A stretch of 12,627 nucleotides of DNA from Desulfobacteraceae bacterium UBA2230. Its GTDB lineage: Bacteria > Desulfobacterota > Desulfobacteria > Desulfobacterales > Desulfosarcinaceae. A program made the translations under genes and the position numbers. Location of the stretch: positions 1 through 12,627 of the forward strand of contig DDYQ01000155.1 in assembly GCA_002348005.1 (NCBI GenBank). Reading direction: 5' to 3'. The notes under the pieces are model-generated. The model was not told where the DNA came from, made no database searches, and was given only the letters and a program-made list of their open reading frames with translations. Shown here in pieces: positions 1 through 12,425 of the stretch (positions are counted from its first letter, which is position 1; each line of letters opens with the position of its first letter).

Positions 1-213
1 GGCGGCGAAATGATGATCACCGACCCTATCATCCACAACTGGCTGCATCCTTCAAAAGGAGTTGAATACGGTGTCATGGCCTTCTTCACCGCTGCCGTTG
101 TGGTGGTGAGCAGAATGCTGTTGGCCTCCAGGAAAAAGAGAGTTGCGGAAGCTCCAGCGGCCGCTCCGGATATCGCCGCACCGCAGCCCAGCGCCATTGC
201 CCACGAGGTTTAA
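1..213 (+). CDS. C-terminal end of a small or truncated membrane-anchored protein
   Basis: The frame is open to the left edge (Gly-Gly-Glu precede two tandem Met codons at 10 and 13) and stops at 211-213. No Shine-Dalgarno sequence precedes the Met codons, so this is more likely the tail of a longer protein than a complete 67-residue one. It shows one hydrophobic segment (about residues 20-38 counted from the first Met), a basic stop-transfer cluster (RKKR) and an Ala/Pro-rich tail, which suggests a single-pass or last membrane helix with a cytoplasmic tail. I do not recognise the family. A strong hairpin at 260-290 ends the transcript. Confidence is high that it is coding and low for any role. 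Confidence 0.55.
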   Translation, partial: GGEMMITDPIIHNWLHPSKGVEYGVMAFFTAAVVVVSRMLLASRKKRVAEAPAAAPDIAAPQPSAIAHEV

Positions 214-1117: not shown

Positions 1118-2161
1118 TTATTGAGCCAGTTTGGCAATGACGTCCGGAATAACTTTGTAGCACACGTAAGCGGCCAGTATCAGGCTGTAGGTCGGAACGA
1201 TCCAGCGCCATATCCTCTCCGGGAAGGTGCGGGTCATCCAGGGCGCCAGAACCGCGGCCACCATGCTGCCCAGCATCATGGACGGCAGCAGGATGAAATC
1301 GATCACTTCTCCACCGGCCAGCATGGTCAGCCAGACGAGAATGGAGAAGCTGCTGATGGTCGCTTCGCACAGGGCCGTGATGGCCATCATGCTCTTGATC
1401 GGGATGCCGGAGAGAATACCGCCGATCGTCACCACCGGGCCGTAGCCGCCGCCGCCGACCCCCTTGTTGAAAGCCGCCAGGCCGCCCCAGAAGATCATCA
1501 TCCTGGGCTTGTAAGAGCGTTCACGGCTTGCGCTGACCAGGGACATCACCCCCATCATCACCAGAAGCGCCGCCACATACAGGCTGATCCAGACTTTGTG
1601 CACTTTAAAGATCGCATACACGGCCGTGACGGAAATCCCCACCGCCAGACAGCCGGTGACGGAAACGAACAGCCACAGCTTGATGGTTTCCGACATGGGT
1701 TTGAAACTCCACTCGACATTGGCGAATTCCCGGTGCAGGAAGGTGCCCACCCAACCGGCGGTGGCCTGCTGAATCATCACGATGGGCACGATCTGTTTGG
1801 GATTGAAGCCCATCACCAGCAGCAGCGGGGTGATGGCGGTGCCGTACCCCATACCGGCCGAAGCATCCAGAAATTCGAAGATGACCGCCAGGGCTACGAC
1901 CGACCAGACGATGTGCCAGTTGTTGGTGCCTTCATAACCGATGGCTTTGATGTAGGGCGAAGCAATACGCTGAGTGGCCTCGAAAGGATTGCCGGCCAGC
2001 CAGCAGCCGACGAGAAACATTCCTGCAAAGACGGCCATCCCCCACAACGCCGCTATAACGGCACCTTTTTCCGGCATGAAGCGTTCCCAGGTGGTCGTGT
2101 TGGCCTCCAGTTCCTTGGCCACTTCCCAGCCCATCCGTTTCTCTCTGATTTCTGTCGTCAT
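1118..2161 (-). CDS. TauE/SafE family sulfite/sulfonate-type anion permease
   Basis: The 347-residue integral inner-membrane protein belongs to the TauE/SafE family (known members export sulfite, sulfoacetate or related organosulfur anions). Two family repeats are visible: a Gly-rich helix around residues 99-118 (DASAGMGYGTAITPLLLVMG) and its counterpart around 232-252 (NKGVGGGGYGPVVTIGG). About eight or nine hydrophobic segments can be seen. It is longer than the common 250-270 residues because of a charged N-terminal stretch (1-30) and an extra helix (about 33-55). The start is supported by GGAGGT at 2168-2173, 6 bases upstream. A sigma54-like site lies 60-90 bases upstream and two hairpins follow the stop. 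The substrate is not determined; in a sulfur-metabolising anaerobe a sulfur oxyanion is plausible. Confidence 0.9.
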   Translation of the reverse strand: MTTEIREKRMGWEVAKELEANTTTWERFMPEKGAVIAALWGMAVFAGMFLVGCWLAGNPFEATQRIASPYIKAIGYEGTNNWHIVWSVVALAVIFEFLDASAGMGYGTAITPLLLVMGFNPKQIVPIVMIQQATAGWVGTFLHREFANVEWSFKPMSETIKLWLFVSVTGCLAVGISVTAVYAIFKVHKVWISLYVAALLVMMGVMSLVSASRERSYKPRMMIFWGGLAAFNKGVGGGGYGPVVTIGGILSGIPIKSMMAITALCEATISSFSILVWLTMLAGGEVIDFILLPSMMLGSMVAAVLAPWMTRTFPERIWRWIVPTYSLILAAYVCYKVIPDVIAKLAQ

Positions 2162-2231: not shown

Positions 2232-2248
2232 ATCAAAAGGCATGCCAG
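2232..2248 (-). promoter_or_regulatory. sigma54-like (-24/-12) promoter of the TauE-family gene, variant -12
   Basis: Read on the minus strand the site is CTGGCATGCCTTTTGAT. The -24 half (CTGGCA) matches the consensus YTGGCAC, and the spacing GG-N10 is exact. The -12 doublet is GA instead of the near-invariant GC. The predicted start near 2221 gives a 60-base leader with a good ribosome site. Similar sites in front of neighbouring genes raise its credibility. Confidence 0.4.
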
Positions 2249-2364
2249 GAAGCAATATCTTCACGGACGCAAGGGCACGCAGCATAATGCTTTGTAAATA
2301 CTTCTGTTTTCGTCTGCAGGGCGACATTCATCTTCAGTGCGGCCGGCGGAGGCTGTAACCGTTC

Positions 2365-2381
2365 AGGTGACAGTGACACCT
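2365..2381. promoter_or_regulatory. candidate activator-binding dyad upstream of the TauE-family promoter
   Basis: AGGTG (2365-2369) and CACCT (2377-2381) form perfect 5-base arms with a 7-base spacer, about 145-160 bases upstream of the predicted start near 2221. This is a usual enhancer distance for an NtrC-type activator. The arm-N7-arm layout resembles the dyad at 7380-7398, but the arm sequence differs. Confidence 0.25.
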
Positions 2382-2560
2382 CCCCCGGCATTGGGCAGAG
2401 GACACGCTGGCATGCATGGTCCACGGGAAATGCCGACGTCTCCTCAAACCCGCTCGGCAGGTGTTGTGGGCCTGACCGACTGTTGCAACGGCGCGCCAAA
2501 AAAGATGCGCCCGCAAGAAGTTCTTCCGGGCGCCTGAAGGCAGGAGGTTTGAAGAGGGTT

Positions 2561-3082
2561 TCAGGAGAGAAAGATCGCGGTCAGAAAAACAAGGCTGCAT
2601 AAGCCGACGCTCCTGCTGAGCGGCCCTTTGCACCAGGGCTTAAAATCGGACTCGGCACAGCGATGGCCTTTCTCACAGACATAGCGGACCCGCGTCTGGT
2701 CAGTCTGACGGCGGGTGTTCGTTTCGCGCTTGACCGCCGAACCGCACGGTTTTGGCTGATCTTTTTCCTTGTAGGCACAAATGCGCCGGGCGCCCGTTCT
2801 CCGGTAAACGGCATTGAAGAGCCGGTCCCATACCGTCGCGAAGATCGAAAGCGTCAACAGCAGGGCTATCAGGTGCTGTTTGGTCAGGCCCAGCGCGGCC
2901 AGCGTACTGCCCAAACGGGCTGGATTGAGAGGGCCTTCGACATCCCCGAACAATCCCAGACTGTAGAAAACGAAACTCAAGGCCATGATGCCCAGCGACA
3001 AGAAAAAATTACCCAGCCGCTGAGCACTGTTCCGACTGACGGGACGCCCCTCACTGATTTCAGGCGAAGGTATTGATTTCAT
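2561..3082 (-). CDS. small membrane protein with cysteine-rich zinc-ribbon-like region
   Basis: I do not recognise a family for this 173-residue protein. Start choice: an upstream in-frame ATG exists at 3154, but ATG at 3082 has AAGGAGAG (3091-3098) 8 bases before it and lies 44 bases after a predicted sigma54-like start. It has two hydrophobic segments (about residues 24-45 and 69-86), a basic region, and cysteines at 102, 113, 136, 142 and 151 with His140. The spacing (C-X10-C, then C-X5-C-X8-C) suggests a metal-binding fold. A last hydrophobic stretch (about 158-173) reaches the C-terminus and could be a third helix or tail anchor. It lies upstream of the TauE-family gene on the same strand, 400 bases away. 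Confidence 0.7.
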   Translation of the reverse strand: MKSIPSPEISEGRPVSRNSAQRLGNFFLSLGIMALSFVFYSLGLFGDVEGPLNPARLGSTLAALGLTKQHLIALLLTLSIFATVWDRLFNAVYRRTGARRICAYKEKDQPKPCGSAVKRETNTRRQTDQTRVRYVCEKGHRCAESDFKPWCKGPLSRSVGLCSLVFLTAIFLS

Positions 3083-3137
3083 GTTTTGCTCTCTCCTTGC
3101 AGGTGGATGATCCTGTTCTGCCACGCTCACTATCGCA

Positions 3138-3154
3138 TCCAAAAGATGTGCCAA
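3138..3154 (-). promoter_or_regulatory. sigma54-like promoter of the cysteine-rich membrane protein, variant -12
   Basis: On the minus strand the site is TTGGCACATCTTTTGGA. The -24 element is a perfect YTGGCAC and the spacing GG-N10 is exact. The -12 doublet is GG where GC is expected. The predicted start near 3127 gives a leader of about 44 bases with a strong ribosome site at 3091-3098. Confidence 0.4.
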
Positions 3155-3209
3155 GCGGCGCCATGGTCAGCGGATGCGCTTTCTCGCGCAAAAACCTGCA
3201 CTTCCAACG

Positions 3210-3261
3210 CGGTCCCGCGACCGGGAACCGCCAGACTGACCAGTGCCAATGGACAGTGGCA
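3210..3261. promoter_or_regulatory. two dyads between divergent sigma54-type promoters
   Basis: CGGTC-CCGC-GACCG (3210-3223) and TGCCA-N8-TGGCA (3244-3261) lie between the minus promoter at 3138-3154 and the plus promoter at 3347-3363. They sit roughly 85-135 bases from the minus start and 115-165 bases from the plus start, within the range of enhancer sites for bacterial enhancer-binding proteins. Arms are only 5 bases long, so chance occurrence is possible. Confidence 0.3.
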
Positions 3262-3346
3262 TCCCCGACTGTCGCTTGCCGGGAGACACTGCGCACGGAA
3301 GCGGATTCCCAAGAGCTCGAAATATAATGGGCCGGCCCGCTCCTGA

Positions 3347-3363
3347 CTGGCAGGACAATTGCA
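3347..3363 (+). promoter_or_regulatory. sigma54 promoter of the CBS-like gene
   Basis: CTGGCAGGACAATTGCA matches the consensus YTGGCACGNNNNTTGCW at every defined position except one (G for C at the seventh), with exact GG-N10-GC spacing. The predicted start near 3374 lies 40 bases before the ATG at 3414. A TATAAT hexamer at 3323-3328, without a good -35, and a 10-base palindrome (3329-3338) lie just upstream. Confidence 0.7.
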
Positions 3364-3413
3364 AAATGGATTCTCAATGGCTGTCAAAACCCTTACGACG
3401 GGGAAGCAGATCC

Positions 3414-3641
3414 ATGAAAAACTACCGTGTGATTGATATCAGCGTTCCTCTGAGCCAGTCCTTGCCGCAGCATCCCAGTGTAGGCCCGGAAGAGGATTTG
3501 ACGCGCGCCATCGAGTTGATGATCCGTTTTAACCGGCACTATATTGCGGTGATGCATAAAAATCGTGCTATCGGCATGGTCGGGTTGAAACAGGCGCTTT
3601 TAAAAATGGGGTTGCGCAACCCGTCCGGCGGCGAGGCCTGA
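3414..3641 (+). CDS. 75-residue single CBS-motif-like protein
   Basis: Residues about 5-67 follow the pattern of one CBS motif: a leading strand VIDISVPLSQSL, then Pro-Ser-Val-Gly-Pro-Glu-Glu-Asp, a helix with Ala-Ile-Glu-Leu-Met, the strand HYIAVMHKN, Ala-Ile-Gly-Met-Val-Gly and a closing helix. CBS modules usually need two such motifs and bind adenosine nucleotides, so this protein may dimerise to complete a site. An in-frame ATG at 3366 lies before the predicted sigma54 transcription start (3374), so ATG at 3414, with GGGGAAG upstream, is preferred. It converges on the response regulator gene, whose end is 33 bases away. CBS membership is a by-eye pattern match. Confidence 0.65.
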   Translation: MKNYRVIDISVPLSQSLPQHPSVGPEEDLTRAIELMIRFNRHYIAVMHKNRAIGMVGLKQALLKMGLRNPSGGEA

Positions 3642-3674
3642 ATCGAAAATGCGGGCTTTACTTCGGAGCCGGAT

Positions 3675-5078
3675 TCATTCTTCCTTTTGCTTGAAGTCAT
3701 CGGCATTGATACCGCTTTCTTTCATCAAGCGGTGCAGATACTGGCGCTGAATACCGGCCCGGTCCGCCGCACGACTGATGTTACCCTTGTTCTCGCGCAG
3801 CAAGGCTTCAATATAGTGGCGGTGGAAATGCTGGGTCATCAGCTCTTTGGCATCCCGAAACGGCAATTGTCCCGCTTCCAGCCGGAATTCACCCACGCAG
3901 GCTTTACCATTCTGGTGAAGCTGCAAATCCTGCTCCTGCAGTGTCGCTCCGCGGCAGAAGATGACGCCGCGTTCGATGATGTTTTCCAGTTCACGCACAT
4001 TGCCGGGATAGTCATAGGCGGTCAGCCTTTGAATAGCTTCAGAAGAAATATCGCGGATGGGTTTGGCATTCATGCGGGCGAATTTTTCCAGAAAATGATA
4101 GGCCAGCAAGGGGATGTCGGCTTTGCGCTCCCTGAGCGCCGGCAGTTCGAAATGGATGACATTGAGCCGGTAATACAGGTCCTCGCGGAACTGCCGGGCG
4201 GCAATGTCGGCCGCCAGGTCGTGGTTGGTTGCGGCGATGAAGCGTAAATCGGCCTTTTTGGTGGTTACGCTGCCCACAGGCTTATACTCCCCTTCCTGCA
4301 GTAAACGGAGCAGTTTGGTCTGCAGTACGTAGCTCAAGTCGCCGATCTCGTCCAGAAACAGGGTGCCGCCCTCAGCCTCTTCCACAAGCCCGCGCTTATC
4401 TTTCCAGGCCCCCGTGAAAGCCCCTTTGACATGCCCGAACAGCTCGCTTTCCAGGACATTCTCGGGAATCGCCGTACAATTGACGGTAATCAGTCTGCGC
4501 GTATTGCGCGTGCTGTACTGGTGTATGGCGCGGGCCAGCAGTTCCTTGCCGGTCCCGCTCGGACCGGTGACCAGGACCGTGGCCGATGCAGGGGCCACCT
4601 GGCGCACCCGGTCGTAAATCTCTTTCATTACGGGGGTGCCGCCGACCAGATTGGCGAAACCGGCTTTCTCGGTCAGGGCTTCCCATAACAGCCGGTTTTC
4701 ACTCGTGACCCTGCGCCACTGCATAACCTTGTCGATGGTCAACAAAATGCGTTCACGCCGGAAGGGCTTGGTGATGTAGTCGTAAGCACCCTTTTGAGTG
4801 GCCTCCACGGCGGTTTCGATGGTTCCAAAGGCGGTCATGATAATGACACTGGCTTGCGGGTCATTTTTCTTGATCTGCTCCAGCAGACTGATTCCATCCA
4901 GCTGGGGCATGCGCAGATCCGTAAACACCAGATCGAAGGAACGCTGCTGCAATTGCTCCAGGGCCTTGACCGGATTGGTTTCGGTGACCACCTCGTGATC
5001 GGTCTCCTCGTTGATGATGCGCTGCAGCAGTATCAACATTTCCGGCTTGTCATCGACGATCAGTATGCTGCCTCTCAT
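3675..5078 (-). CDS. NtrC-family sigma54-dependent response regulator
   Basis: This is a 467-residue cytoplasmic transcription activator with a complete three-domain layout. The receiver domain (about 4-118) has acidic residues Asp9-Asp10, phospho-acceptor Asp54, Thr82 and Lys104. The AAA+ domain (about 143-372) has Walker A GPSGTGKE (172-179), the sigma54-contact loop GAFTGA (219-224), Walker [11 protein letters not shown] (237-246), FREDLYYRL (297-305) and YPGNVREL (357-364). A Fis-type helix-turn-helix follows at about 430-455 ([20 protein letters not shown]). GGAGG sits in the 12-base gap after the kinase stop, so the two are co-transcribed. The intact GAFTGA loop says it activates sigma54 promoters; likely targets are those at 7271-7287, 7295-7311 and 3347-3363. 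Confidence 0.95.
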
Positions 5079-5090
5079 GACTTCCTCCGC

Positions 5091-7253
5091 TTATTGGGTC
5101 ATCAGTTTGATGATGAACGTGGTGCCGCCCGTTGAATCGGGGGACTCGCGAAGCCGGCTCTGGCATTCTATGCTGCCGCCATACTTTTTGATGATCCCGT
5201 AACTGATGAACAATCCAAGACCGGTGCCCTCGCCCTCCGGTTTGGTGGTGAAAAAGGGATCATAAATGCGGTCGATATCTTCCGGCCGGATGCCTTCGCC
5301 TTCGTCCTCTATCTGCACCAGGGCCCGGCGCTTGGTTCGCTCGTAAGCGGTGTGGATATTGAGCCGCCCACCGGCCTTCATCGCTGCCGCCGCGTTGTTG
5401 ATCAGGTTTAGAAATACCTGCCGCAGCTGCCGGCCGTCCCCCCTGACCAGAGGAATACCCTCCCTGAAATCGAGGTCTGGACGGATGCGTTGCATTTCCA
5501 GCGAATAGCGCACGATGGAAATGGTTTCCATCAGACATTGATTCAAATCGCTGAATGTCTCGCTTTCCTGCCCCACCCGGGCGAAACTAAGAAGATTTTC
5601 CACGATCTGTTTGCAGTGCAATCCCTGCTGCTCGATTATTTTCAAGTCTTCATACTCCTGGGCACCCTTCTCCTTTTTACGGACCAGCAAATCACAAAAT
5701 CCCAGAATGACGCCGAGGGGATTGTTCAGTTCGTGGGCTACGCCGGCCGCCAAAGTACCCAGCGAAGCAAGTTTTTCCGTGTTGATCAACTGCTTCTCGA
5801 GCTTTTTGTTCTCCGTGATATCCCGTGCGATGCACAGCACCGCATACATCTCAGCCTGTTCATCTCTCAGCGGCATGCAATTGATGCTGATCCAGATATG
5901 GTGATCTCCGGTCTTCAACTCCAGTTCCTGGCGGATGCTCCGCCGGTTATGAAAAACCAGATCCACGCAGCGAACGATCTTCTGGGTTGCACTCTCCGGA
6001 AAAACCGTGCCGATACCTTTCAGCGACAGCGCCTCGGGCGTGCTGCCGAAAAATGCGGCGGTATAACTATTGACCGACAAGAATTTTTTTTCGGCATCCA
6101 GCGTGAAAATGAAGTCTTCGGCGCTCTCGATGAGGGAGCGGTATTTTTCTTCGGAACGCTTCAGCGCTTCCGTGCGGCTCATAACTCTTCTTTCAAGATT
6201 TTTAGACCAGCGCACCTCGAAGAAGATGGCGGTAGCGGCACCAGCCGCTACGATGCAGATCATGAGTACCTGAAGTAAAATCTGCCACATCTGAAGACTC
6301 TGGATACTTTCATGAATTTCCGACACCGGAGCCACCACCGCAACGGACCAGAACCGGGGTGGAGCGTTGCTGATGCGAATGGGGGTATAGGCGATCAGCT
6401 TTTGTATCTCTCCGGTGACGCCTCGATGCCAGACCGACGTATATTCTCCGAAACCCTCCTCGCCTTTGAGCATGCTTTCGCGCTGAATACGATTGATCTT
6501 GGAGAACGAATGCTGTTTAAAAAATACGGCCCGGATTTCGAAGGCATTGGCGCCGACATAGGGGGCAAAAGGGTGATAGAGAAATGTGCCCTGGCGATCG
6601 ATGATCCAGGCGTAACCGCTGACTCCCGATCGGATATCCTTGATGAAGGAACTCAGAAACCAACCGATGTTGACATGGAAAAGGACGACCCGGTTCTTGT
6701 CGGGGGTCACCGGCACCGCCATTTTAAGCAGCAATTCCGAGTCCGCGATGATCGGGTCCGAAATCCACTCGCTGAGATCTTCCGTCAAAAAACTCTTCTG
6801 GATCTGCTCAAAAACGGCCGGCGTGAGGTCGACGGCAGCCATCATCTGATACGGCAGGTAAACGATATTGCTGTGCTCCCGCAAATCGATGATCTCGATC
6901 CTGCGGACACCGTTTTCAACCACCCGTTTCAGACTTTCCCTGGTGATTTCGGGAATGAGTTCAATTTGCCCCTCGCTCTGCCGAAGGTTTTGAGCCAGCA
7001 GAAGCAGTTCCCGTTTGATCAGGCTCAGTTCACGTTCCACCACACTGCGGATGTTGCGGGCCACCACCAACTGCTGGGCGTTGAATTGATGGGTGATCAC
7101 ACGGCCGATTTCGCGTCGGGTCCACAGGCTGATCAGGGTTCCAACGGCTACCACCAGCACGGCGGTGACCAGAACCGCTGCGATGATCCGATGTTCCAAG
7201 GGTGCGCGTTCGAACGGTTCCATGTCCATCCCGAATGATGCCGGCTCTCGCAT
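5091..7253 (-). CDS. dCache/PAS sensor histidine kinase, partner of the NtrC-type regulator
   Basis: This 720-residue inner-membrane kinase has one helix at about 22-45, a periplasmic region of about 285 residues resembling a dCache sensor (46-325) and a second helix at about 326-346. A coiled linker precedes a PAS domain (about 370-485). The HisKA motif GVAHELNNPLG carries phospho-acceptor His507. The ATPase domain has N box FLNLINNAAAA (Asn617/Asn620), DEGEGI (650-655), DPFFTTK (665-671) and GTGLGL (676-681). It should phosphorylate Asp54 of the regulator 12 bases downstream. Start is uncertain: the predicted sigma54 start near 7260 leaves only 7 bases before ATG 7253, which has no ribosome site. 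Met9 (7229) or Met11 (7223) fit that promoter better. The ligand is unknown; dCache domains commonly bind amino acids, carboxylates or amines. Confidence 0.93.
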   Translation of the reverse strand: MREPASFGMDMEPFERAPLEHRIIAAVLVTAVLVVAVGTLISLWTRREIGRVITHQFNAQQLVVARNIRSVVERELSLIKRELLLLAQNLRQSEGQIELIPEITRESLKRVVENGVRRIEIIDLREHSNIVYLPYQMMAAVDLTPAVFEQIQKSFLTEDLSEWISDPIIADSELLLKMAVPVTPDKNRVVLFHVNIGWFLSSFIKDIRSGVSGYAWIIDRQGTFLYHPFAPYVGANAFEIRAVFFKQHSFSKINRIQRESMLKGEEGFGEYTSVWHRGVTGEIQKLIAYTPIRISNAPPRFWSVAVVAPVSEIHESIQSLQMWQILLQVLMICIVAAGAATAIFFEVRWSKNLERRVMSRTEALKRSEEKYRSLIESAEDFIFTLDAEKKFLSVNSYTAAFFGSTPEALSLKGIGTVFPESATQKIVRCVDLVFHNRRSIRQELELKTGDHHIWISINCMPLRDEQAEMYAVLCIARDITENKKLEKQLINTEKLASLGTLAAGVAHELNNPLGVILGFCDLLVRKKEKGAQEYEDLKIIEQQGLHCKQIVENLLSFARVGQESETFSDLNQCLMETISIVRYSLEMQRIRPDLDFREGIPLVRGDGRQLRQVFLNLINNAAAAMKAGGRLNIHTAYERTKRRALVQIEDEGEGIRPEDIDRIYDPFFTTKPEGEGTGLGLFISYGIIKKYGGSIECQSRLRESPDSTGGTTFIIKLMTQ

Positions 7254-7270
7254 CTTTGAGGGGAAGTTTG

Positions 7271-7287
7271 TGCAAAGAGCACGCCAA
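7271..7287 (-). promoter_or_regulatory. sigma54 promoter of the kinase/regulator operon
   Basis: On the minus strand the site is TTGGCGTGCTCTTTGCA. It matches YTGGC, the G at position 8 and TTGCA, with exact GG-N10-GC spacing; two defined positions differ (GT for AC). The predicted start is near 7260. A two-component activator with a GAFTGA loop downstream of such a promoter suggests autoactivation. Confidence 0.7.
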
Positions 7288-7294
7288 CCCCGGA

Positions 7295-7311
7295 TTGGCC
7301 TGTTTATTGCT
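7295..7311 (+). promoter_or_regulatory. sigma54 promoter of the PEP-synthase-like gene
   Basis: TTGGCCTGTTTATTGCT matches YTGGC, G at position 8 and TTGCW with exact GG-N10-GC spacing; two defined positions differ (CT for AC). The predicted start near 7322 gives a leader of about 180 bases to the ATG at 7504. It is back to back with the minus promoter at 7271-7287; only 7 bases separate their -24 ends. Confidence 0.65.
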
Positions 7312-7398: not shown

Positions 7399-7466
7399 AA
7401 ATGAATCGCCAGCGCGTGGAATGTAAAAGCTCCTGACAGTTCGTAAAAAGATATCAACGTTCCAGC

Positions 7467-7503: not shown

Positions 7504-10137
7504 ATGCGAATACTTCAGAAACTCAAAATTTTACGCCGGAACTCTCCCCAAGGCGGGCTCTCACGTGAAAACCTGATGGCGGTTTTCCGCCGCAAATACG
7601 CCAATTTCCAAACCCTGCTGGATTCAAACGCCCAGCTGCTGAAGGTCATTTCGGATATCGAACACAAGCTGCAAGGCCAGACCGTATTCGGACCCGCCTA
7701 CATCGAAGCCCAGACCATGCGCAGCATATTTCACTGCGCCCGGATGATCGATTGTCTGGAAAAGATGTCCGGACGCGCCTATCCATCGCTGTATAAGGCG
7801 CTGGACGGCATCCATCGGCAAATCAAAATTGAAAAAGGCGAAGTTACCACCACGGCATCGGCCGGTTCGGACCTGCTGCTGCCGTATCGCCGTATCGGCC
7901 GGGAATCGACCGCTGCGGTGGGCGCCAAAAACGCCAACGTCGGAGAAATCATGAACCGCCTGGCGATCCCCACGCCCCGGGGATTCGCCATTACCACGGC
8001 CGCTTTCCGACATTACATCGCGGCCAATAACCTGGCCGAAATCATCTTGCGCATGAAGGCCAAAGCCGATCTGATCGAAGCCGAAACCATTCTGCAGGTC
8101 AGCCATGAGATCCAGAACAGGCTGATGCAGGCGGCGGTTCCAGCGGATCTGGCCGATGCCGTTTATCGGGCCCACGCGCAGCTGACACAGGAGATCGGCG
8201 GCAAATCCCCCAATATCTCGATGCGCAGCAGCGCCCTGGGCGAAGACAGCACGCTTTCCTTCGCGGGCCAGTATCTGACCGTGCTGAATGTTCCCGCCGA
8301 GCGGCTTCTGGAGGAATATAAACGAATTCTGGCCAGCCTCTTCACGCCCCACGCCATCAGCTATCGGCTGCACATGGCCATCACTTTCCAGGAAGCCGTG
8401 ATGGCCGTTGCCTGTCAGGAGATGATCGATGCAAAGGCCAGCGGGGTCATGTACACGCGCAACCCGATAGACCCGCTGGAAAACCGGATTCTGATCCAAT
8501 CGGTTTGGGGACTTGGGCCATATGTCGTCGAAGGCATCATCACACCCGACACCTACGTCTTCTCCAAACAGACCCCGCCTGTCCTGTTGAAATCCAGCAT
8601 TGCGGATAAACCCGCCCGGCTTGTCGCCCTCGACGACGGAAGTCTGCGCGAAGAACCGGTGCCTGCGCACGAACGCCGCCTGGCGAGCCTGACCGAAGAC
8701 CAGGCTCGCCAGCTTGCCGAATACGGTCTTCGCCTCGAGGCGCATTTCGGCGGCCCGCAGGATGTCGAGTGGGCGCTGGACCCGCTCGGCCGGCTGGTGG
8801 TGCTGCAGACCCGCCCTCTGCGCGTGGATGTCCAGCAGAGAGGCCTTCGAGAAGCTGAAACCGAACCGCTACCCGGTTACCCGCTCCTGCTGGAGGGCGG
8901 CGATATCGGGTGTATCGGGGTCGGTTGCGGGCCGGTCTTTCGGGTGGCGACCGAATCCGATCTGGCCGCCTTTCCGGATGGAGCCGTCCTGGTATCGGCA
9001 TCCGCTTCCCCCCAACTGGTCATGGCCATGCCCAAAGCCCGGGCCATTCTGACCGATACGGGCAATATCGCCGATCACATGTCGTCCCTTGCCCGGGAGT
9101 ACATGGTTCCCACGCTGCTGAATCTCGGCCGGGCCACCAAGATCCTGACGCCGGGAACGCTGGTCACCGTGGATGCAATCCATGGCAGAATTTACCTCGG
9201 ACACGTCCGGGAACTGACCGATGCCGGTATCCGCTTCAGTGGTATCATGCACAACACTCCCACCTACCACGCCCTGCGCCGCAGGGCGGATCTGATCGTG
9301 CCGCTTAATCTGAAAGACCCCAAGGCGCCCGATTTTACCCCCTCCCGCTGCCGCACCCTTCACGACATTACGCGGTTTATCCATGAAAAGTCCTATGAAG
9401 AAATATTCCAGCTCGGCGATCTGGTTACCGACCGTGGAAAATTGTCGGTACGTCTCAAGGCGCCGCTCCCCCTGGACCTGTATGTCATCGATCTGGGTTC
9501 CGGGTTGCGTGTGGACGCCACTCAGGTGTCTGAGATCCGGCCTGCGGATGTCATATCGGCGCCGTTTGAATCGCTGCTCGCGGGAATGACCTGCGATGCG
9601 TTGTGCTGCCGGGAGCCCCGTCCCGTCAACCTGGGTGGGTTTTTCGCGGTCATGGGCCGGCAGATGCTGACGCCGCCCCATATAGCCGCCGAGCGCTTCG
9701 GCGACCGTAGTTATGCGATCATTTCCGACCGCTATCTGAATTTCAGCTCGCGGGTCGGCTACCACTACAGTGCACTGGACAGCCATTGCGGCCAGACGGC
9801 AGCCAAGAATTACATCAACTTTCAATTCAAAGGCGGGGCTGCCGACGAACTACGCCGCAACCGGCGGGCGCTTGTCATCGAAAAAGTACTGATCGCCAGC
9901 GGCTTCATGGTCAATACGGTGGGCGATCGGGTGACGGCCAGGATAGAGAAACTGGAGGCGCCGGAGATTCGCCGGAAACTGGATACGCTCGGCAGGCTGC
10001 TGATCTACACCCGTCAGATGGACATGCTCATGCACCATGGATCCATGGTGGACAAAATGGCCGAATGCTTCTTAAGCGGCAACTACAACCTGGATCCGGA
10101 TGACGGCACACCGGTGTGCGGGATACCTCCCGGATAG
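7504..10137 (+). CDS. PEP-synthase-like ATP-dependent phosphotransferase with an unassigned C-terminal domain
   Basis: The 877-residue protein is related to PEP synthase and pyruvate phosphate dikinase. Residues 1-125 are helical and unassigned. The ATP-binding domain (about 130-440) has VGAKNANVGE (Lys142), MRSSALGEDS (Arg241), SGVMYTRNP, SVWGLG-PYVVEG-PDTY and DVEWALDPLGRLVVLQTRPL. The swivelling phosphohistidine domain (about 465-567) has TDTGNIADHMSSLAREYMVP; His524 aligns with the phosphorylated His of the family, although the usual G-G-x-T-S-H-A-A is altered. The last 310 residues show none of the PEP/pyruvate TIM-barrel signatures. They do contain the short motif HCGQT (761-765), reminiscent of the catalytic Cys-Gly-Gln of PEP synthase, which may be coincidence. 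The ATP and His modules suggest phosphotransfer to an unknown acceptor. It is divergent from the two-component operon; the next gene starts 5 bases after its stop. Confidence 0.85.
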   Translation: MRILQKLKILRRNSPQGGLSRENLMAVFRRKYANFQTLLDSNAQLLKVISDIEHKLQGQTVFGPAYIEAQTMRSIFHCARMIDCLEKMSGRAYPSLYKALDGIHRQIKIEKGEVTTTASAGSDLLLPYRRIGRESTAAVGAKNANVGEIMNRLAIPTPRGFAITTAAFRHYIAANNLAEIILRMKAKADLIEAETILQVSHEIQNRLMQAAVPADLADAVYRAHAQLTQEIGGKSPNISMRSSALGEDSTLSFAGQYLTVLNVPAERLLEEYKRILASLFTPHAISYRLHMAITFQEAVMAVACQEMIDAKASGVMYTRNPIDPLENRILIQSVWGLGPYVVEGIITPDTYVFSKQTPPVLLKSSIADKPARLVALDDGSLREEPVPAHERRLASLTEDQARQLAEYGLRLEAHFGGPQDVEWALDPLGRLVVLQTRPLRVDVQQRGLREAETEPLPGYPLLLEGGDIGCIGVGCGPVFRVATESDLAAFPDGAVLVSASASPQLVMAMPKARAILTDTGNIADHMSSLAREYMVPTLLNLGRATKILTPGTLVTVDAIHGRIYLGHVRELTDAGIRFSGIMHNTPTYHALRRRADLIVPLNLKDPKAPDFTPSRCRTLHDITRFIHEKSYEEIFQLGDLVTDRGKLSVRLKAPLPLDLYVIDLGSGLRVDATQVSEIRPADVISAPFESLLAGMTCDALCCREPRPVNLGGFFAVMGRQMLTPPHIAAERFGDRSYAIISDRYLNFSSRVGYHYSALDSHCGQTAAKNYINFQFKGGAADELRRNRRALVIEKVLIASGFMVNTVGDRVTARIEKLEAPEIRRKLDTLGRLLIYTRQMDMLMHHGSMVDKMAECFLSGNYNLDPDDGTPVCGIPPG

Positions 10138-10830: not shown

Positions 10831-11888
10831 CTGAAGAGTCTGCGGATCAATCCCATGGAGGGCACATTCTCGCTGATGCTTTTCAGGGCCGAAAGGAAGG
10901 GGAGCGCGAGGATCACTCCCGGGACTCCCCACATCCAACCCCAGAAAAATATGGAGAGGGCGACCAGCAGCGGATTTACGGTCAGACGCCGGCCCAGCAC
11001 CGTGGGCGTAATGAATTGTCCCTCGAGCAGGGTCAACAGAAAAAAGCAGGCCGGCGGCAAGGCCATACGCACCCAATTCTCGAACCAAATCACCGACACC
11101 ATACCCAGGATCAAAATGGTTACGGCGGGGCCCAGATAAGGCACATAATTCAGCACTCCGGCAACCACCCCCCACAAAACCGGGTTGGGCATTCCCAGCA
11201 GGCCCATCACCACACCCGTTACGATCCCCAGCAGGATATTCAGGATCGTGATGGTGCCGATGTACGTGCTGATATCTCTCTCTATGGTATCGATCGTCAG
11301 AACCAGTCCGTCCCTGGAACCGTTTTCGCTCAGGTGATGCAATGCCCTTTGGCCGTATGCCAGGATAAAGTAGAGCAGCACGATCACCGCCACGATGCTC
11401 AGCACCAGTGACTTGGCGCTGGCATACAATTGGTCGCTCAAACTTGGCCCCTTGACCACCACCTCTCTGCCGTCGCCTTCGGACTCCGTAAGATCCTGAA
11501 TTTTACGGGAAGCTTCCCTGGCCTGCTTCATGGTCGCAAAGAAGGTGTCCATTTTGAATTCGATCTGCCTCACGAACGAAGGTACGCGGTCGACCCACTC
11601 ACCGGCCGGTTCGGCGAGTTGATAGGTGCCGAACCCGGCTGCCGCAACGATCATAAAGACCACCAACACCGCCCCCGCAGCATCCGGAATTTTCAAGCGG
11701 TTCATGAACCTGATCAGCGGCAGGAGCGCCAGGGCGATCAGAGCGGCGACGGCGACAGGCAGAAGCAGCGTGCGGAAGAAATAGATGGCATGCATCAGGG
11801 CGAGGATCAGCAGGCCGATCAGGATTCTCTCCTGCGCAAGGAAACGCGACAGATGCGAAAGGCGGGTTGATGTGGGCTCCTGACTCAT
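10827..11888 (-). CDS. AI-2E family (TqsA/YdiK-type) membrane transporter
   Basis: The 353-residue inner-membrane protein has the typical AI-2E layout. Paired helices at about 22-60 and a helix at 72-88 are followed by a soluble amphipathic region (about 92-150) and then five helices. Family motifs are clear: PNPVLWGVVAGVLNYVPYLG (235-253), EGQFITPTVLGRRLTVNPL (289-307) and WGVPGVILALP (320-330). Length is normal. Members have been linked to export of autoinducer-2 or other small molecules and, in some bacteria, to Na+/H+ exchange; the substrate here cannot be read. No good ribosome site precedes ATG 11888. It converges on the membrane protein gene at 10143, with 12 bases between their stop codons. 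Confidence 0.92.
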   Translation of the reverse strand: MSQEPTSTRLSHLSRFLAQERILIGLLILALMHAIYFFRTLLLPVAVAALIALALLPLIRFMNRLKIPDAAGAVLVVFMIVAAAGFGTYQLAEPAGEWVDRVPSFVRQIEFKMDTFFATMKQAREASRKIQDLTESEGDGREVVVKGPSLSDQLYASAKSLVLSIVAVIVLLYFILAYGQRALHHLSENGSRDGLVLTIDTIERDISTYIGTITILNILLGIVTGVVMGLLGMPNPVLWGVVAGVLNYVPYLGPAVTILILGMVSVIWFENWVRMALPPACFFLLTLLEGQFITPTVLGRRLTVNPLLVALSIFFWGWMWGVPGVILALPFLSALKSISENVPSMGLIRRLFR

Positions 11889-11979
11889 GCGCTGTTCAAA
11901 ACGTTGGAGTTGAAAACTCCCTCTACAATCTTCCCGAAATCGGCATAAGCGATGGGTTCAACATCGTATTCGAGAAAAG

Positions 11980-12001
11980 CCGGAGGTGTATTTTACTCCG
12001 G
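11980..12001. promoter_or_regulatory. inverted repeat, candidate operator
   Basis: CCGGAG (11980-11985) and CTCCGG (11996-12001) are perfect 6-base arms around an AT-rich 10-base spacer (GTGTATTTTA). This is the most AT-rich spot in a GC-rich stretch. It lies about 90 bases before the AI-2E start codon and about 80 bases before the sigma70-like site for cstA, so it could serve either gene. Confidence 0.3.
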
Positions 12002-12077
12002 ATCCGATCCGGTCCGGCATGATACCGACGTTCCAACCGGGAAGGGGGTGCCAGGGCGGCAGGGGGGCATAAAATCA

Positions 12078-12104
12078 TTGACACTCCAGCGCCCAGCGCA
12101 TAAA
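12078..12104 (+). promoter_or_regulatory. candidate sigma70 promoter for cstA
   Basis: A perfect TTGACA (12078-12083) is followed after 15 bases by CATAAA (12099-12104, 4/6 match to TATAAT). The spacer is shorter than the optimal 17. It would give a leader of about 310 bases before the cstA start codon. Confidence 0.35.
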
Positions 12105-12318
12105 CATCAAGCCGTTCTGCGCTGTAGAAAAAAGGTCTGAAGCAGCCCTGAAAAGCATTTCGCGCCTCAGCGCCCCGCGCCGGACCATGCGAAGCAAACC
12201 GGTGGACTGCCCCCCGTGTTCGCTATGCAGGACATCGAAGCTCCCTCGTGCCTGTGCGGCTTTCGTTTGACGGAAAGCGCCCGGATCCCGGGACAGCCCT
12301 ATCAACCCCAACACAGAA

Positions 12319-12425
12319 AGGAGGAGATGCCCGCCAACCCAGCTCCTTAAGGCCTCACTCACCCGCCCTCCGCATGGAAACCGATCCTGGCGAGGCGGAC
12401 GCGAACGGAAAGAAAAGGAGAAGTC
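12319..12425 (+). promoter_or_regulatory. cstA leader with clustered GGA motifs, possible CsrA target
   Basis: GGA triplets occur at 12320, 12323, 12376, 12397, 12407 and 12417. The last three are 10 bases apart, and the final one is part of the Shine-Dalgarno sequence AAGGAG. CsrA binds GGA motifs and is known to repress cstA translation in E. coli. Whether this organism has CsrA is not visible. A short frame of seven codons (12327-12350, MPANPAP) follows an AGGAGG, but with only 2 bases between them. Confidence 0.35.

Follow-up and report, generated by a model that had tools for sequence, protein, structure and literature searches.

Five sigma54-type promoter sites around a regulator gene

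Positions 1 to 12,627 of contig DDYQ01000155.1, from Desulfobacteraceae bacterium UBA2230, make up the stretch of DNA analysed here (the window). It carries genes for a TauE/SafE (TSUP) permease, a small membrane protein, a CBS-like protein, an NtrC-type response regulator, a sensor kinase and a phosphoenolpyruvate (PEP)-synthase-like protein, together with five sigma54-type promoter sites, all intergenic and each facing a gene (Table 1). A previous sequence-only reading of this DNA had described five such sites with GG-N10 spacing, three of them with the full GC at -12, and had proposed that they form a self-contained local regulon around the regulator gene.

Both strands were scored with a sigma54 matrix of 16 positions, the weights of which we chose to reflect the published consensus. 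The five sites were the top five of all positions on either strand of the window, and the sixth scored 9.2; each 16-base core is one base shorter, at its start or at its end, than the 17-mer described earlier. Five sites scored at least 13, versus 0.59 ± 0.78 expected from 200 dinucleotide shuffles, and in the three gaps the shuffle mean was 0.058, with none of 2000 shuffles reaching five. A check free of weights agreed, as the five sites were alone in the window in having two or fewer mismatches to 12 fixed letters. GG at -24 and the N10 spacing were found at all five sites and GC at -12 at three (CBS, kinase and PEP-synthase-like genes); the other two carry GA (TauE) and GG (membrane protein). 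The comparison with shuffled sequence that the sequence-only reading had suggested therefore places the five sites far above the shuffles. Its statements that no comparable site precedes cstA and that the regulator has an intact GAFTGA also held: no site in the gap at 11889-12425 reached a score of 8, and GAFTGA was present in the regulator of all 41 loci in which the motif was read, the window included. The observation of five sites is real and stronger than had been claimed.

Table 1. Genes, predicted promoters and candidate upstream elements of the window.
Feature	Position	Strand	Details
TerC-family membrane protein gene, 3' end	1-213	+	tblastn 49-64% to L086, L100, L102, L116, L117
TauE/SafE (TSUP) permease gene	1118-2161	-	Pfam TauE PF01925, 69.8 bits (cut-off 32.6)
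Sigma54-type promoter of TauE	2232-2247	-	TGGCATGCCTTTTGAT; GA at -12 (A/T class); score 14.2, rank 4
UAS1	2354-2372		score 17.1; 106 bp upstream of TauE promoter
Small membrane protein gene	2561-3082	-	six cysteines; without Pfam family
Sigma54-type promoter of membrane protein gene	3138-3153	-	TGGCACATCTTTTGGA; GG at -12; score 13.1, rank 5
UAS1, second copy	3237-3255		score 12.1
UAS1, between divergent promoters	3270-3288		exact TGTC-N11-GACA; score 16.8
Sigma54-type promoter of CBS gene	3348-3363	+	TGGCAGGACAATTGCA; full GC; score 16.4, rank 1
CBS-like protein gene	3414-3641	+	75 aa; Pfam CBS 21.8 bits, below curated cut-off of 24
NtrC-type response regulator gene, candidate UAS1 binder	3675-5078	-	Response_reg, Sigma54_activat, HTH_8; GAFTGA
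Sensor kinase gene	5091-7253	-	dCache-PAS-HisKA-HATPase; dCache 40 bits, below cut-off of 45
Sigma54-type promoter of kinase-regulator operon	7271-7286	-	TGGCGTGCTCTTTGCA; full GC; score 15.8, rank 2
Sigma54-type promoter of PEP-synthase-like gene	7296-7311	+	TGGCCTGTTTATTGCT; full GC; score 14.8, rank 3
E2 with following CGTAAA	7422-7448 (E2 7423-7438)	+	sole E2 in window; aligned in L001, L002, L045
PEP-synthase-like protein gene	7504-10137	+	877 residues; PPDK_N and PEP-utilizers swivel domain

Conservation of the module and its promoters

A search with the kinase across 389 genomes of the order Desulfobacterales gave matches at 1e-130 in 80 of them. We examined 43 loci, comprising L001, L002 and L004 and 40 regions (L085-L124) that correspond to ranks 1-43 of the kinase list minus L001 and L002, already included, and G337, which was left out. 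Upstream regions were taken from estimated gene starts, and the best same-strand site scoring at least 12 was counted; the window is included throughout. The module of TauE, small membrane protein, CBS-like protein, NtrC-type regulator and dCache kinase recurs in the order, in varying gene order and not always complete.

Usable TauE upstream regions were available from 28 related loci, and with the window 16 of 29 had a promoter site, compared with 1 of 29 on the opposite strand. Sites preceded CBS genes in 18 of 22 loci (opposite strand 5 of 22, where the divergent TauE promoter can fall) and kinase genes in 21 of 44 (opposite strand 9 of 44), while the regulator gene, which lies inside the operon, had one in 41, as did the opposite strand. 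PEP-synthase-like genes had sites in 3 of 4 loci and 3 on the opposite strand; a wider set gave 7 of 44 regions, or 6 of 8 (window included) where the protein was at least 60% identical. Conservation, which the sequence-only reading had put forward as a check, was therefore found for the TauE, CBS and kinase promoters and, among close loci, for the PEP-synthase promoter; the membrane-protein promoter was not general. TauE precedes the small membrane protein in all 25 relatives in which both genes were found; in the window the order is reversed and each gene has its own promoter site. The gene before TauE resembles a CaCA-type exchanger in L087, L105, L118 and L123, and another transporter in L099 (both by eye).

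The proposed link to the PEP-synthase-like gene stands in part. In at least 10 genomes (by eye; among the matches listed, G087, G100, G112, G124, G136, G183, G225, G235, G252 and G276) a distant PEP-synthase-like gene (35-43%) precedes a distant kinase gene by at most 300 bp on the same strand, and in L086 such a gene lies 339 bp ahead of the kinase gene. The pairing of the two kinds of gene is thus recurrent but takes another form there: the divergent arrangement with a close PEP-synthase ortholog, as in the window, was otherwise observed in L001 and L002 alone. The distant pairs suggest that there may be a working link between both proteins. Forty loci chosen by their PEP-synthase-like gene (L045-L084) gave no TauE, membrane-protein or CBS match. 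A match to the AAA+ domain of sigma54 activators was seen by eye just upstream of the PEP-synthase-like gene in 15 of 44 loci (among L047-L083). At L045, where no kinase match was found in the locus, a strong sigma54-type site, TGGCCCGCTCTTTGCA, at about 9640 faces away from the PEP-synthase gene; it could possibly serve an RNA or be a remnant.

Two candidate upstream elements divide the predicted promoters

Aligned TauE upstream regions contain an inverted repeat, TGTC-N11-GACA, here called UAS1, and kinase upstream regions contain a second element, GTAAA-N6-YGACA, here called E2. Both were spotted by eye in the alignments and tested afterwards; these two kinds of candidate activator site, like the TerC-family gene end, had previously been overlooked. 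The 44 loci (545 kb) hold 38 exact copies of TGTC-N11-GACA versus 4-13 at every other spacing from 4 to 17. A UAS1 matrix was trained on the relatives without the window, and counts in those relatives are partly circular; the highest of 210600 coding-background positions scored 12.2. The window contains predicted activator sites upstream of the TauE promoter, of the membrane-protein promoter (at 83 and 116 bp) and of the CBS promoter (at 59 and 92 bp). A fourth match (11017-11035, score 10.7) lies inside an AI-2E-like gene and was taken as chance.

UAS1 scored above threshold in 21 of 28 TauE, 15 of 22 CBS and 7 of 44 kinase regions, and in 2 of 43 regulator, 2 of 26 membrane-protein and none of 6 PEP-synthase regions. 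Every one of 28 TauE-operon sites had a UAS1 scoring at least 8 upstream, at 124-130 bp in 23 of them, and some had a second copy at 91-96. These spacings cluster, but the best helical period (12.0) fell at one end of the tested range, and we make no claim of phasing.

Order-wide searches for UAS1 and E2 used patterns of fixed letters. The UAS1 pattern (UAS1, 90-120 bases, TGGCAYN5TTG), which leaves the -12 base free, was present in 53 of the 389 genomes, and the reversed pattern gave 3 hits. Of the 52 genomes that have a close kinase ortholog, 29 gave a match, versus 24 of the 337 others (Fisher p 1e-15), where a close ortholog means E <= 1.7e-177, a cut-off picked afterwards at a gap in the list. 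P values here and below serve only as guides, since the sequences that they count as independent are related. Among the other genes behind UAS1-linked promoters are those for a second dCache kinase, a response regulator, a sigma54 activator and cytidylate-kinase-like, AMP-binding and HD-domain proteins, and UAS1-linked TerC promoters occur in L086, L170 and L174 (the last named by eye).

E2 is distributed differently. It was found, in either orientation, at 15 of the 21 kinase promoters scoring at least 12 and in none of 91 other regions (28 TauE, 22 CBS and 41 regulator). Forward copies in relatives lie 85-121 bp upstream of the kinase promoter, 8 of 11 at 85-97. No UAS1 was found by matrix scan in the kinase/PEP-synthase gap of the window. 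The combination of E2 and a promoter was present in 173 of the 389 genomes, whereas its control gave no hit, and at least 93 of the 173 are without a kinase match at 1e-130 (173 versus 80). A further motif, TTTAC-N5-GTAAA, was present in 9 of 44 kinase regions and in none of the same 91 regions, and ran into E2 where viewed. In L192 and L195, from other genomes, E2-linked TTGC promoters precede genes for proteins that resemble the CBS protein (by eye). The CBS gene may thus belong to either of the circuits proposed below.

These distributions bear on the proposal of one self-contained regulon, in which the adjacent regulator would activate all five promoters by binding E2 as well as UAS1 or by acting at a distance. 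The regulator gene is adjacent to the promoters, and autoregulation is common in such two-component systems, which would fit a single regulon. E2 and UAS1 share the GACA half-site, though with different spacing, and the pairing of PEP-synthase-like and kinase genes in other genomes points the same way. Such a regulon is nevertheless unlikely, given the separation of the two elements, the many E2 genomes without a kinase match at 1e-130 and a sharp difference in the -12 base between UAS1-linked and E2-linked promoters, described in the next section. What survives of the earlier proposal is a conserved cluster of sigma54-type promoters around an activator gene with UAS1 at three of them; its self-containment is not supported, because the kinase/PEP-synthase gap has E2 and no UAS1, E2 is spread across the order, and UAS1-linked promoters also precede other genes. 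The locus would then join two sigma54 circuits.

The -12 base largely follows the upstream element

The classes were compared in a promoter scan that ignored the -12 base and the base next to it. At TauE, 20 of 21 loci carried A or T, the exception (L123) being a weak match inside the preceding gene, whereas C was found at 15 of 15 CBS sites and 15 of 16 distinct kinase sites. Eight loci, L123 included, have another gene first in the operon, and its site is again TTGT or TTGA. All 28 loci with a TauE-operon site therefore carry TTGA or TTGT and none carries C; in the 29th, L101, the contig ends about 110 bases upstream of TauE.

The GA and GG sites of TauE and the membrane protein might instead be decayed, chance or another protein's sites, leaving the three GC sites as the only sigma54 promoters. 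The TauE site, however, retains TGGCAY or TGGTAY, the spacing, the strand and TTG in the 28 loci, with UAS1 upstream at restricted spacing, and the TTGA/TTGT form also precedes other UAS1-linked genes. The base must have changed between A and T 5 or more times on the TauE tree and 7 or more times on the regulator tree, never via C, which is unlike free drift. For the membrane-protein GG site there is no such support from relatives, and this limits the case against decay; as an account of both sites, decay appears quite unlikely. We regard the A/T base at TauE as a conserved trait: the non-GC site there is the conserved form and not an imperfect one.

The split extends beyond TauE. Among 125 sources assembled before the order-wide pattern search, UAS-linked sites at a threshold of 14.5 had C in 3, A/T in 38 and G in 1, versus C in 33 and A/T in 12 of those without UAS1 (p 2e-10). 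At a threshold of 12.5 the corresponding counts were C 10, A/T 45 and G 1 versus C 72, A/T 23 and G 10. Order-wide, 76 distinct UAS1-linked sites had A in 42, T in 14, C in 18 and G in 2. Seven of the 18 C sites belong to CBS genes (by eye), and four of the T sites (L176-L179), from four genomes, share nearly the same sequence, which is probably coding and not a promoter. TerC promoters were mixed, with A in L170 and L174 and C in L086 and, by matrix, in L100, L102 and L116.

E2-linked sites provide the best control, since they come from the same genomes and the same blind promoter pattern and differ in the upstream element. C was found in 28 of 30 examined, which were the matches that came with loci out of many more listed, the other two being unusual in their spacing (108 and 109); in the older loci C was found in 15 of 17. 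The E2 and UAS1 sets had C to A/T ratios of 28:1 versus 18:56 (p 5e-12, again a guide only, as the sequences are related). The E2-linked promoters, which have C, speak against local AT-richness as the reason for A/T at -12.

Probably one sigma54 for two promoter classes

More than one RpoN protein, each with its own promoter preference, is present in some bacteria, and the A/T class could in principle be read by a second RpoN of altered specificity. The RpoN profile PF04552 matched in all 18 relatives searched, with a single match in 16; of the other two, G308 has two full matches, and G281 has two partial matches that cover separate parts of the domain. With a single RpoN match in 16 of 18 genomes, a second RpoN is very improbable, and we argue that one sigma54 reads both classes.

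A mechanism may be sought at the fork edge. Available text of a structural study shows the -12 base flipped out in a sigma54 promoter and suggests that a stable G-C pair at -13 might help to build and maintain a hydrophobic wall where sigma54 region I threads the DNA (PMC9770992). By our count from the oligonucleotide printed there, the GC of the nifH promoter occupies -14/-13 (PMC9770992), and the A/T class would exchange that study's -13 G-C pair for A-T. Plausibly, the fork edge would then be looser and open more readily, the closed complex would be less stable, or the promoter would respond less well to other activators. We favour a tuned promoter class. More tentatively, and at somewhat less than even odds, one sigma54 would serve two classes, TTGC and a selected TTG[A/T] favoured by one two-component activator, the latter either easing opening at the fork edge or insulating its targets, such that activator identity would be written in the -12 element as well as in the upstream site. 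In the insulating variant, the targets would be shielded from the many other sigma54 activators of Desulfobacteria.

A proposed node joining two sigma54 circuits

Taken together, the data are best explained if all five sites are sigma54 promoters that start transcription within two circuits and the locus is a node in a cascade, a reading to which we assign a probability of roughly two in three. In the first circuit, the dCache kinase would phosphorylate the local NtrC-type regulator, which would bind UAS1 roughly 80-130 bp upstream and drive RNA polymerase-sigma54 at the TauE and small-membrane-protein promoters; UAS1 probably serves the CBS promoter too. The TauE-operon promoter and most other UAS1-linked promoters (not CBS and some TerC) carry TTGA or TTGT in place of TTGC, a conserved trait. 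The second circuit would comprise the kinase-regulator operon and, here, the divergent PEP-synthase-like gene, both with TTGC promoters near E2, an element that may mark a much wider sigma54 circuit of the order under another activator. That E2-dependent activator would set the level of the two-component system, which in turn would activate transport and membrane genes through UAS1.

Several observations weigh against this reading or parts of it. The membrane-protein promoter is not general, with sites in 2 of 26 loci, the window among them, and 1 on the opposite strand. The window's E2 is reversed relative to the kinase and lies 136 bp upstream of the kinase promoter; together with the following CGTAAA it falls downstream of the promoter of the PEP-synthase-like gene, within that gene's leader, as it also does in L001, L002 and L045. 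For these reasons the role of E2 is less sure in the window than in the relatives. UAS1 and a promoter also match in 24 of the genomes without a close kinase ortholog. The -12 split is not absolute: C stands at 10 of 56 UAS-linked sites (threshold 12.5) and at 18 of 76 order-wide, 12 of 45 promoter-like sites without UAS1 carry A/T (threshold 14.5), so that A/T is not exclusive to UAS1, and the CBS promoters and the TerC promoters of L086, L100, L102 and L116 adjoin UAS1 yet have TTGC. Plain counts in 10 genomes gave 56 TGGCACGN4TTGC versus 15 reversed and 94 TGGCACGN4TTGW versus 25 reversed, an excess over the control by a similar factor that does not separate the classes; one of these genomes (G329) has a repeated copy, and the control was not composition-matched.

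We consider the putative activator-linked -12 class, a finding made from sequence, to be the notable result. Sigma54 promoters are commonly searched for as GG-N10-GC, and regulon surveys would overlook an A/T class or give it low scores. According to the available text of one report, Desulfosarcina ovata has 69 sigma54 activator genes (PMC12316311). If the -12 base is matched to the activator, it would offer a way to ask how one form of RNA polymerase separates dozens of activators, and whether the fork-edge G-C pair is subject to tuning.

Protein families of the window genes

The permease belongs to the TSUP (TauE/SafE) transporters, its PF01925 match lying above the cut-off, and the full-length L100 relative of the TerC-family gene end is Pfam TerC. 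The regulator has the receiver, the Sigma54_activat domain with GAFTGA and the Fis-type helix-turn-helix of NtrC-family sigma54 response regulators. Its best NCBIfam model is AtoC, and because it scores 441 bits, below the AtoC cut-off of 714, we do not name it AtoC.

The PEP-synthase-like protein matches PPDK_N (295.8 bits) and the swivel domain (52.2 bits) in Pfam, and the profile search gave no match to the PEP/pyruvate-binding barrel and no C-terminal Pfam match. The full-length PEP-synthase model TIGR01418 covers residues 126-569 only, at 298.9 bits versus a cut-off of 739.75. The closest named relatives of the PEP-synthase-like protein are in a Desulfatitalea metagenome-assembled genome, a Desulfobacterales metagenome-assembled genome and Desulfosarcina cetonica (61-64%), and another genome has one at 70%. 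The family without a barrel match has matches at E <= 1e-100 in 222 of the 389 genomes.

Comparison with known systems

The five sites share with the canonical sigma54 promoter, for which the available text of one source gives the -24/-12 consensus mrNrYTGGCACG-N4-TTGCWNNw (PMC2725144), the -24 element, the spacing, TTG and an intergenic position, and those of TauE, the membrane protein and CBS also a candidate activator site upstream. Unlike it, the TauE-operon promoter and many other UAS1-linked promoters have A or T for the C of TTGC; our literature searches found no description of such a class in the text available. The regulator shares the receiver, the AAA+ domain with GAFTGA and HTH_8 with NtrC/AtoC-type regulators, and differs in falling below the AtoC cut-off.

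A close likeness is to Desulfovibrio vulgaris, in which a TSUP operon, DVU0132-DVU0133, is under the sigma54-dependent response regulators DVU0110 and DVUA0057, and nine operons of the sigmulon encode TSUP or PSE transporters, according to the available portions of these studies (PMC4641369; PMC3333781). There, as proposed here, a two-component NtrC-type regulator is combined with a TSUP-family transporter operon (PMC4641369; PMC3333781). A plasmid search for a D. vulgaris relative returned none among the best 15 of 3498 matches, only distant regulators. In the same portions of those studies, the D. vulgaris promoter consensus is tGGcacg/tTGCt, with no A/T class at -12 described, and the activator sites fall into three motif groups with TGT/ACA half-sites 9, 11 or 12 bp apart (PMC4641369; PMC3333781); on that measure UAS1 would be 13 and E2 11.

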